Position numbers and translations under genes: made by a program
DNA from: an uncultured Ectothiorhodospiraceae bacterium
Lineage (GTDB): Bacteria > Pseudomonadota > Gammaproteobacteria > Nitrococcales > Halorhodospiraceae
Direction: 5' to 3'
DNA: 32,159 nt
NCBI GenBank assembly: GCA_913055765.1
Contig: CAJXKI010000006.1
Coordinates: 1 to 32,159, forward strand
The notes under the pieces: model-generated
The model's database searches: none
Seen by the model: only the letters and a program-made list of their open reading frames with translations
What the model was told of the DNA's origin: nothing
Shown here: positions 7,300 through 11,067 of the stretch, piece by piece
Layout: the number at the start of each line of letters is the position of its first letter
Numbering within the stretch: the stretch's first letter is position 1

Positions 7300-8295
7300 C
7301 TACGGGGTATCCTCTGTACCACGGCTGGCCTCCCGATGCATCCCCCCTCCGGGATCGATCCGCCTTGTGATGGTGACTAGCCCGAGCAGCTGGCTGATCT
7401 GTCGATCGCGGCGCTCGAGATCGAGCTGCAATTGCTCCAGCCGCGCCTGCAACTGCGCCCGCTCCTGCTCGCCATGGGCCTGCGCCTGCTCGAGCTCGGC
7501 CAGCCGGGCCTGGGCCTGGGCATAGGCCTGCCGCTGGCCCTCGAGCCCCTCCTGCGCCTCGCTGAGCCGGCGCTCGAGCCGCTGGCGCTCCTCGCTCAGC
7601 CGCCCCTCCGCACGCTCCGCGCGCTCGTGGGCCGCGTCCCGCTCCTTGGCGAGCTCGTTGAAGCGGCGTACGTACTGCGCCTCCTGATCGGCCCAATGGC
7701 TCCGCTCGCGCTCCAGCTGCGCCTGGGCCTCCTGGAGCGCTGACTCCTGCGCGGCGAGCCGTTCGGCCAGGCCCCGCCGCTCGCGCTCGGCCTCCTGCTG
7801 CGCTTCCTGCAGTTGCTGGTCCTTGCGCGTGCGCAGCTGCTCCATCCGCGCCTCCAGATCCTGGTAGGCCGCCTGTAGCGCCTCGATCCGCTCGGCGCGC
7901 TCCTGCGCCTGCGTCAGCGCCGCATCGCGCTCGTGCTGCGCGCGCTCCGACTGCTCGAGGGCCGCGTCGCGCTCGGCTGCATAGGCCTGGCGCTGGCGCT
8001 CCAGCTCCTCGCGCTCGGCGGCGAGCTGCTGGTGGGCGACCTCCTGGGCGGTGTTCCAGAAGGTGATCATGGCCGGGTGCAGATCCTCCGGGATATCCGC
8101 CGGGAGTGAGCCGCCGAGGTGCTCCTGCATCTGCTCGATCACCCGGGCGCGGAGCTTGAGCACCGTCTGCTTGGAGCCGTGGCCGAGGTGGGCCAGCAAC
8201 CGGTCGGCGCTCGGCGCCTGGCCCGAGCTGAGGCAGGCGTAGACGGCGTCGCGGACCTCCGCCTCGGACAGGGGGTGGTGGCGCTGCTCGCTCAT
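7300..8295 (-). CDS. KfrA_N-domain DNA-binding protein with long coiled coil; TnpT-like (cointegrate resolution protein T) candidate
   Basis: N-terminal VRDAVYACLSSGQAPSADRLLAHLGHGSKQTVLKLR resembles KfrA_N (PF11740), followed by a long Glu/Gln/Arg-rich coiled coil; divergent from a tyrosine recombinase. Confidence 0.75.
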   Translation of the reverse strand: MSEQRHHPLSEAEVRDAVYACLSSGQAPSADRLLAHLGHGSKQTVLKLRARVIEQMQEHLGGSLPADIPEDLHPAMITFWNTAQEVAHQQLAAEREELERQRQAYAAERDAALEQSERAQHERDAALTQAQERAERIEALQAAYQDLEARMEQLRTRKDQQLQEAQQEAERERRGLAERLAAQESALQEAQAQLERERSHWADQEAQYVRRFNELAKERDAAHERAERAEGRLSEERQRLERRLSEAQEGLEGQRQAYAQAQARLAELEQAQAHGEQERAQLQARLEQLQLDLERRDRQISQLLGLVTITRRIDPGGGMHREASRGTEDTP

Positions 8296-8309
8296 GGGGC
8301 CTCCCTATT

Positions 8310-8321
8310 CATACCGGTATG
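8310..8321. repeat. Perfect 12-bp palindrome CATACCGGTATG (probable operator)
   Basis: Read directly; sits 15 nt upstream of the KfrA-like start codon. Longer form ATTCATACCGGTATGGAT has one mismatched pair. Confidence 0.7.
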
Positions 8322-8331
8322 GATTTGTGGT

Positions 8332-8361
8332 ACATACCTTAACAGTATGATTGAGGTATGT
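8332..8361. repeat. 8-bp inverted repeat ACATACCT ... AGGTATGT sharing the CATACC half-site
   Basis: 8332-8339 and 8354-8361 are exact reverse complements, 14-nt spacer. Confidence 0.65.
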
Positions 8362-8362
8362 T

Positions 8363-8390
8363 TTGTCTCATAAGAGGCAAAATGTGACAA
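8363..8390. promoter_or_regulatory. Dyad TTGTCTCAT-N10-ATGTGACAA: candidate tyrosine recombinase core site, overlapping possible divergent promoters
   Basis: 9-bp arms match at 8/9 positions, 10-bp spacer. TTGTCT-17-GACAAT can be read on + and TTGTCA-17-GACAAA on -. A second dyad TTTTGTCTC-ATAA-GAGGCAAAA lies at 8361-8382. Confidence 0.45.
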
Positions 8391-8499
8391 TCTTTGCGGT
8401 AACGAGGCCCTCGTGAGCCATCGGGGGAAAGGTAGGAGCCTAGCGCCCTGCGAAGGAGCCCACGAGCGGCCACCATGGGGTCTGAAGGGAGCGGCAACG

Positions 8500-9786
8500 A
8501 TGGGTGGGCAATCCCTGGAGACACGTACCGAGCCCCTTGAGGCAGCAGGCCGTGAGCGGGGATTCTTCCCCTGGTGCCTGGCCGAGTGGGCCCCGGACAA
8601 TGCCGCTACGCCGACCCCGCATCCTGGCGGCTATGGACCCATCCCGCTCGGCGACGGGAGCGGCTACCTGCTCACCGACGATGGCGGCCACCTCGCCGGC
8701 TGCTCGAGCGATCTCGAGGCGGTAGCCCTGTACCTCGCCCGGCATCGGCGCAATCAGCATACCGCTCGGAGCTACCGCAAGGAGGTCGAGCGCTTCCTCC
8801 TCTGGCTCGGGCTGGAGCGGGACCGCGCCCTCAGCGAGGCCCGGCCCGAGGATCTGACCCTCTACGACGATCTGCTGCGCAATCCGAAGCGCTGGGCGCA
8901 CTGGTACACGGACTACCGCCGGCCGCGCACGGATCCGCAGTGGCGGCCCTTCCAGGGGACGCTCAGCGCTGGTGCCCGGCACTACGCCCTGGCCGTGGTG
9001 AACCGGCTCTACAACTGGATGACGGAGCAGGGCTACCTGCGGCTCAATCCGGTCAACGCCTCGGCCGCCGAGATCGAGAGCGCGCGCAAGCCGGCCCGGC
9101 AGGAGCGGTACCTGAATCCGCAGCTGTGGCGGACCCTCATCGAGGCCATCGAGACGATGCCCGTGCGTACGGCGCGCCAGCGGGCGCGCTACGAGCGCGC
9201 CCGCTGGGTGGTCCGCGCCCTATACACCATGCTCGCCAGGGCCTCTGAGTTCGCTGACGCCACCCAGGGCTCGATCTACGCCGTGGAGCGCCCGGAGGGA
9301 CGGCAGTGGTGGTGGACCGTGCGCGGCAAGCACCGGCGCTGGCACGATCCCCCCGATCACGTCCCCTTGCCGCAGGCGCTCATCGATGACCTGGCCCGCT
9401 ACCGGTCTTACCTCGGGCTGCCCCCCTCCCCTGCTCCCGGGGAGACCACGCCGATGATCGTCAGCCTCTACCCGCAGCGCGATGGCTGGCAGCCGGTAAC
9501 GCGGCGGACGGTCTACCGCATCGTCAAGGATGCCGGCGAGCATGCGGCGGTCCTGCTCGAGGAGCGTGGAGAGGAGCAACGCGCCGCCCTGATGCGCCGG
9601 GCCTCCACGCACTGGCTGCGGCATACGGGGATTACCCACCGCGTTGACGCTGGCGTCCGCTTCCACGAGCTGCAGCGACTGTCCCGGCTCAAGACCATCG
9701 AGATGCTGCGGACCTATACCCATGCCGAGGATGACCGCCTTGCGGCCTTGGCTGAGGCGTTCGGCACGGGGCAGCCGGAGGATTGA
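8500..9786 (+). CDS. Tyrosine recombinase / phage-integrase family protein; TnpS-like candidate
   Basis: SAM-like N-terminal domain (HTARSYRKEVERFLLWL), catalytic Arg in ARASEF, Lys in RGKHRRWHDP, HWLRHT, and Tyr in RTYTHAEDDR. ATG at 8500 follows GAAGGGAG; the tracked ORF extends upstream to 8413. Confidence 0.88.
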   Translation: MGGQSLETRTEPLEAAGRERGFFPWCLAEWAPDNAATPTPHPGGYGPIPLGDGSGYLLTDDGGHLAGCSSDLEAVALYLARHRRNQHTARSYRKEVERFLLWLGLERDRALSEARPEDLTLYDDLLRNPKRWAHWYTDYRRPRTDPQWRPFQGTLSAGARHYALAVVNRLYNWMTEQGYLRLNPVNASAAEIESARKPARQERYLNPQLWRTLIEAIETMPVRTARQRARYERARWVVRALYTMLARASEFADATQGSIYAVERPEGRQWWWTVRGKHRRWHDPPDHVPLPQALIDDLARYRSYLGLPPSPAPGETTPMIVSLYPQRDGWQPVTRRTVYRIVKDAGEHAAVLLEERGEEQRAALMRRASTHWLRHTGITHRVDAGVRFHELQRLSRLKTIEMLRTYTHAEDDRLAALAEAFGTGQPED

Positions 9787-9886: not shown

Positions 9887-9897
9887 TTATGAGACAA
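9887..9897. repeat. TTATGAGACAA, exact inverted copy of TTGTCTCATAA at 8363-8373
   Basis: 11-bp exact reverse-complement match flanking the recombinase gene. Confidence 0.6.
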
Positions 9898-10233: not shown

Positions 10234-11067
10234 TCAGGCGGCCGTATCCGGCGGGCACAGGACCCCGACCGGGAAAGGCGCCTGACGCACCAGCGCCTGG
10301 GCGACGCTGCCCATGACCAACCGTGCCAGGCCGGACCAGCCAAGGGTGCTCATCATGACCAGGCTGCCGCGCCCGGCGCAGTAGTCACTGATGGCGCGCG
10401 CCGGCTGCCGGTCCTTGAGGACCACCCAGGTCACGCTCCGGGAGAGCTCCGGCTGCAGCCGCTCGCCGACCTGCTCCAGGTAGGCCTCTACCGAGGCCTG
10501 GAAGTCACCGCTATCGGCGTCCTCCCCCTCGGTGTCGATCACGCGCAGCAGGCGCAGCTCCGTGCCTAGCTCCTCGGCGAGCTCGACAGCGTAGGGGAGG
10601 ATCCGCTCCGAGACCTCCGAGCCGTCCAGCGGGACGACAACCCGCAGCACCGGGCCGCTCCAATCGTCCGGCAGCCCAGGGCCAGCCAGGATCATGGGCC
10701 GATGCGCCTCACGGAGGACCGAGGTAGCGACGCTGCCGACGACCGCTTGCCCGACAGCGCCGCGCCCCCGTGTCGCCATGCAGAACAGGGCCCCGTCCCG
10801 CTCACCGAGCGCCTGCGCCAAGAACGCCCTCGGATCGTGGGCCACCTCGACCTCGATCTCCGAGCCAGCGACCAGCGGATTACCCACCTCCCCCAGCGGG
10901 AGGAGGTAGCGGATCTCCCGCCGGCGCTCCTGCTCCTTGCCCTCGTCATCGACCACGGACAGCAGGCGTAGCGGTAGCGAGGCCTGCTGATGGAGCTCGT
11001 GCCCTACCCTGAGACCCTTGAAGACCGACTGCTCGGAGCCGTCTACGGCGACGACCACCTCTTCCAT
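10234..11067 (-). CDS. Universal stress protein with tandem UspA domains
   Basis: Two Usp repeats; ATP-binding-type motif TRGRGAVGQAVVGSVA in the first and LGWSGLARLVMGSVA in the second. Confidence 0.9.
   Translation of the reverse strand: MEEVVVAVDGSEQSVFKGLRVGHELHQQASLPLRLLSVVDDEGKEQERRREIRYLLPLGEVGNPLVAGSEIEVEVAHDPRAFLAQALGERDGALFCMATRGRGAVGQAVVGSVATSVLREAHRPMILAGPGLPDDWSGPVLRVVVPLDGSEVSERILPYAVELAEELGTELRLLRVIDTEGEDADSGDFQASVEAYLEQVGERLQPELSRSVTWVVLKDRQPARAISDYCAGRGSLVMMSTLGWSGLARLVMGSVAQALVRQAPFPVGVLCPPDTAA

Follow-up and report, generated by a model that had tools for sequence, protein, structure and literature searches.

In most proteobacteria XerCD, acting at its site dif, is considered the only system that resolves chromosome dimers. 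The BIM modules of Cupriavidus metallidurans (bimAB) pair a KfrA_N protein, BimB, with a recombinase, BimA. In Tn4651-type transposons the helper TnpT and the tyrosine recombinase TnpS are encoded by divergent genes with their resolution site, rst, between them, giving the order TnpT-rst-TnpS (PMC7157771). The Legionellales have a lone recombinase, XerL (nucleophile Tyr387), with a short symmetric core and a location at the terminus (PMC9765430). Here we set against these systems a divergent gene pair, T and S, in a stretch of 32,159 nucleotides (the window) from an uncultured Ectothiorhodospiraceae bacterium (contig CAJXKI010000006.1, positions 1 to 32,159), in which an earlier note had seen a TnpS-TnpT-like module without a transposase. 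We favor, with moderate confidence, a reading in which T, the intergenic site and S together form a self-contained TnpT-rst-TnpS-like resolution module that is chromosomal and transposase-free. The layout, the protein families, the catalytic residues, the conserved dyad, purifying selection, a fixed position in two species and the terminus linkage of chromosomal relatives support it.

The divergent pair was confirmed in the window. T (7300-8295, minus strand) is a KfrA_N protein of 331 aa (Pfam E 2.3e-17) with a long coiled coil, as in plasmid KfrA. A syntenic copy in the related genome G001 is 83% identical, and the dN/dS of T between the two (0.31) is typical among the neighboring genes. The open reading frame of S (8413-9786, plus strand) encodes 457 aa when counted from the GTG at 8413, which is also the origin of our residue numbering; protein-level similarity to G001 begins at the ATG at 8500, making this the probable start of a product of about 428 aa (8500-9786). 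The gap between the genes (8296-8499) is accordingly about 204 bp, in agreement with the roughly 200 bp given previously. S is a diverged tyrosine recombinase, falling under the Pfam cut-off for Phage_integrase (E 1.9e-5) and best matched by XerA/XerD profile models (1e-11 to 1e-10). The catalytic residues R276, K306, H400-x-x-R403 and Y435 are all kept, and are invariant in the S family.

The proposed kinship with TnpS and TnpT held for the layout, the KfrA_N helper and the rst-like site in the gap, but not for the recombinase. T matches TnpT at the BLASTP level (32% over 100 aa, E 8e-7). S, on the other hand, has no BLASTP similarity to TnpS, and profile-profile alignment with hhalign gave a probability of 18% for TnpS as opposed to 99.9% for BimA and 99.6% for Xer. 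In the tree, TnpS occupies a separate long branch, while the S family includes the TnpR of Tn4401 and has BimA as its sister. These alignments and the tree place S outside the TnpS lineage, in a group with BimA, Tn4401 "TnpR" and Xer; the earlier note had thus named the closest architectural analogue of a real module, but not its lineage. As the KfrA_N domain is common to T, TnpT of Tn4651 and BimB, while S belongs to a lineage apart from TnpS, one type of helper accompanies at least two lineages of recombinase.

Each of the described systems shares some features with the window and lacks others. As in TnpS/TnpT/rst, including that of pWW0, the window genes for a KfrA_N helper and a tyrosine recombinase diverge from an intervening site, which by its form combines a core of inverted repeats with a further inverted repeat; the window differs in having no transposase and in the lineage of S. 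BimA is a profile-level homologue of S (28% identical), but BimB and BimA are encoded by co-directional, overlapping genes and BimA has an N-terminal extension, whereas the window pair is divergent; the accessible part of the BIM description gives no recombination site. The Tn4401 TnpR, although inside the S family, is 571 aa long and carries an additional DUF3701 domain; its gene lies beside tnpA, and the annotated neighborhood examined contains no KfrA gene. This "TnpR" (L141:4350-6065) is a tyrosine recombinase, not a serine resolvase. XerCD/dif resembles the S module in the 11-6-11 shape of the core, in the profile-level kinship of the recombinases and in having terminus-linked relatives, but the S module has one recombinase with a coiled-coil helper and a site at its own promoter, and it coexists with XerCD. 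XerL/dif may be likened to it by its single recombinase, short symmetric core and terminus location; the available portion of the XerL account (PMC9765430) mentions no KfrA partner and places xerL far from dif in Legionella.

The gap was described beforehand as AT-rich and dyad-rich, and it is both. AT content reaches 56% at 8296-8412 compared with 27% for the whole window, and the dyads comprise the palindrome CATACCGGTATG (8310-8321), a candidate T operator; the inverted repeat ACATACCT/AGGTATGT (8332-8361), a candidate second T site; and a dif-like 11-6-11 dyad at 8363-8390, made up of a left arm TTGTCTCATAA (8363-8373), a 6-bp central spacer GAGGCA (8374-8379), the presumed crossover region, and a right arm AAATGTGACAA (8380-8390). 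T-operator-like repeats extend across 8310-8361. Comparison with G001 reveals conserved blocks in a diverged background: both arms are identical (11/11 each, 22/22 together), as is the palindrome block at 8308-8322 (15/15), whereas the spacer agrees at 4/6 positions (GAGGCA vs GACGTA) and the remaining 103 bp at 53/103 (51%). Fixed arms around a varying spacer are the pattern that a recombinase core should show. Similar dyads with a 6-bp spacer are found in other T-S gaps, where some species pairs differ mainly in the spacer. Furthermore, in f174, the gammaproteobacterial family of genome G323, the motif ATTCAAGATTA-N6-TTATCTTGAAT occurs with 0-4 mismatches in 26 gaps, against shuffle averages of 9.4-10.9, and when these 26 gaps are aligned the dyad arms are nearly fixed while the S-side flanks are random. 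The core with its arms is a single-copy sequence in both G000 and G001, with no second full site elsewhere in either genome, and no core site was found on viral contigs. About 100 bp downstream of S (9887-9897, minus strand) the left-arm sequence is found again as a half-site, in inverted orientation and without mismatches (2 matches found vs 0.01 expected), and a matching block of G001 contains TTATGAGACCA.

The pair occupies the identical locus, with the same chromosomal neighbors, in G000 and G001. By its substitution pattern the module is a maintained one and not a decaying remnant, because S has the lowest dN/dS (0.10, window vs G001) among the 11 genes of the block. This bears on the possibility that the pair is the resolution part left over from a Tn3-family element after loss of its tnpA and ends, and is now drifting, as does the finding of a relative in G147 in which T and S are followed by a Tn3 transposase of 1035 aa (PF01526 3e-87); since that pair directly precedes a Tn3 tnpA, the T-S type of module evidently serves Tn3 transposons. 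At locus L161 a Tn3-family transposase comes right after T-S, with GGGGCTTTGT-type ends downstream at 10288-10317 and 10581-10610. S copies in G002, G003 and G008 are separated or broken, and those standing alone or broken in G002 and G008 do resemble decay. A history as remnant is nevertheless rather unlikely for the window, given the strong constraint on S, site arms intact in two species, the absence of any visible tnpA fragment and the conservation of the pair across genera elsewhere. Of the three origins offered by the earlier note, a transposon remnant fits poorly with the low dN/dS and the conserved arms, and a minimal mobile element finds no support in a pair with the same locus in G001 and one full site per genome, which leaves "domesticated" as the best of the three. 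Two congeners, G002 (contigs C13, C36, C73 and C83) and G008, carry several S copies that stand alone and are in part broken, which suggests past spread or decay. In G002 and G003, TACCG-type repeats precede T. Orphan T genes with no S beside them occur in G003 and G002 (L057:3330-4406, L061:986-2173), each preceded by T-operator-like repeats and a ATCGCAACA...TGTTGCGAT dyad.

The surroundings are chromosomal, with genes for Mdh/Ldh, a histidine kinase, an AI-2E transporter, Usp, a BCCT transporter and cobalamin functions. This bears out the claim of housekeeping neighbors and no tnpA: neither the window nor, except for G147, any further T-S or S locus examined had a Tn3 tnpA match. These neighbors are also not the phage or conjugation genes that would accompany the integrase of a prophage or of an integrative and conjugative element. 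In G006 the Usp-bPH-BCCT block carries on but the opposite flank is non-homologous, so that no empty site could be read. A PgpA-like gene lies between S and Usp in G001 (L055:16582-17070) and is not apparent in the window; PgpA is also near the T-S pair in G109.

Beyond this locus, divergent T-S pairs are found on plasmids of Paraburkholderia, Azonexus and Rhodanobacter, and several families have them on a chromosome or contig; many relatives are plasmid-borne. A co-directional arrangement is seen in the BIM modules and also on an Aquicella plasmid. In pHG1 and C. metallidurans BS1 (L075, L076) inserted DNA splits T from S, with a core-like dyad remaining with T. Capture by integration at the core was rejected as an explanation, as pHG1 and BS1 show the dyad on the T side only and an insert without a duplicated flanking site. 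The many plasmid-borne divergent pairs might suggest that the window holds a plasmid multimer-resolution module, stranded by integration of its plasmid and without a chromosomal role, but no replication or partition genes were present among the window proteins scanned and the locus is fixed and under purifying selection, which makes such an origin very improbable.

The terminus-linked chromosomal relatives are the unexpected part of our results. S is present in 69 of 81 f174 genomes (20 of 24 genera), nearly always in one copy; of 30 loci, an automatic test detected a divergent T at 26, and nfuA usually follows on the far side of T. An independent search for canonical XerCD dif located it in 36 of 38 f174 genomes, and in all 36 it lies 3.7-18.2 kb downstream of S. 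Because position is inherited, this linkage counts as one (stable) evolutionary event. Three separate lineages besides f174 agree on a terminus location: the pair is at 0.50 of the genome and at the GC-skew sign change in G275, at the GC-skew change in G079, and, in G109, inside a 29-kb stretch of low skew that is bounded by two dif-like sites. These G109 sites (C1:158085 and 187405) are in opposite orientation. The G275 and G079 lineages yielded no dif at ≤3 mismatches genome-wide, or at ≤6 up to about 60-70 kb from the pair, and a search of 200 kb on each side of the G275 origin found no XerC, which is no proof of its absence. In G002, 2.1 kb separate a perfect dif match from a solitary S copy. 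This copy, the position of the G109 pair between two dif-like sites, the patchy occurrence of S within its genus and the many plasmid copies would also be expected if S were the integrase of a mobile or terminus-integrating element riding at hot spots such as dif. We consider this improbable, as the pair keeps the same neighbors in G000 and G001 and stands beside nfuA across f174 genera, and the window has no second full site around it.

Several observations weigh against a maintained, terminus-linked resolution module. G038 is a counter-example to the terminus location. For the window locus itself, proximity to dif is an extrapolation from relatives: dif in G001 sits on a different contig from the T-S locus, and within about 240-280 kb of dif in the complete genome of the congener G008, S was the sole window gene that mapped, aside from an HI0933 match (49.9% identity, about 100 kb away). 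XerC and XerD are both present in G000, so dimers there are already covered by another system, and an S match is absent from four of eight congeners. Taken alone, the dyad exceeds shuffles only weakly at most individual loci, and a scan of G001 with 10-bp arms was not above shuffles at all; because the single-locus tests are weak for several gaps, the case for the site rests on comparison. The main biochemical doubt is Leu426 of S, which occupies the usual His/Trp position nine residues before the Tyr, meaning that S may be slow or inactive. The residue at this position is non-standard in the window S, in G001 and in one G002 copy, while most relatives keep His. It is conceivable that S has lost strand exchange through this change, and that T and S only bind the site and half-site as a regulatory or architectural pair, which would also suit the single full site per genome and the extra half-site at 9887. 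We regard this as unlikely, as the nucleophilic Tyr and the Arg, Lys, His and Arg are retained, most relatives have the His, and the spacer varies between fixed arms, as in recombination cores.

Under the resolution model that we favor, S would bind the two 11-bp arms and exchange strands across the 6-bp spacer, while T would bind the CATACC/GGTATG repeats beside the core, control both divergent genes and aid synapsis, much as TnpT is presumed to act at rst. A lone chromosomal site would gain a second copy only when the chromosome dimerizes or forms a cointegrate with a site-bearing replicon, and since a second copy would arise only through replicon fusion, the simplest function would be the resolving of dimers or cointegrates. 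The terminus linkage in relatives favors chromosome dimers, although for the window this is again extrapolated. XerL of the Legionellales offers a precedent, by analogy, for dimer resolution by just one recombinase acting at a symmetric core (PMC9765430). In our preferred reading the module is maintained on the chromosome and probably resolves chromosome dimers or cointegrates, and the linkage suggests that a transposon-type resolution machine has been adopted to separate joined chromosomes.

More tentatively, and with less than even confidence, we propose that these loci may belong to a second, undescribed recombination system for chromosome maintenance, in which an Xer-like recombinase works with a KfrA-type helper at a site within the promoter region that the two genes share. 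The system would be of common stock with transposon and plasmid resolvases, conserved beside dif across f174 genera and located at the terminus in other lineages. The open-licence papers searched describe no KfrA-recombinase system at dif. If this proposal is true, a unit less than 20 kb from dif in every f174 genome with dif would point to back-up resolution or to an unknown terminus function, and the route by which resolvases of transposons and plasmids came to serve chromosome maintenance would become clear. A testable role would also follow for the plasmid KfrA-recombinase pairs and for the BIM modules, which are so far unexplained.
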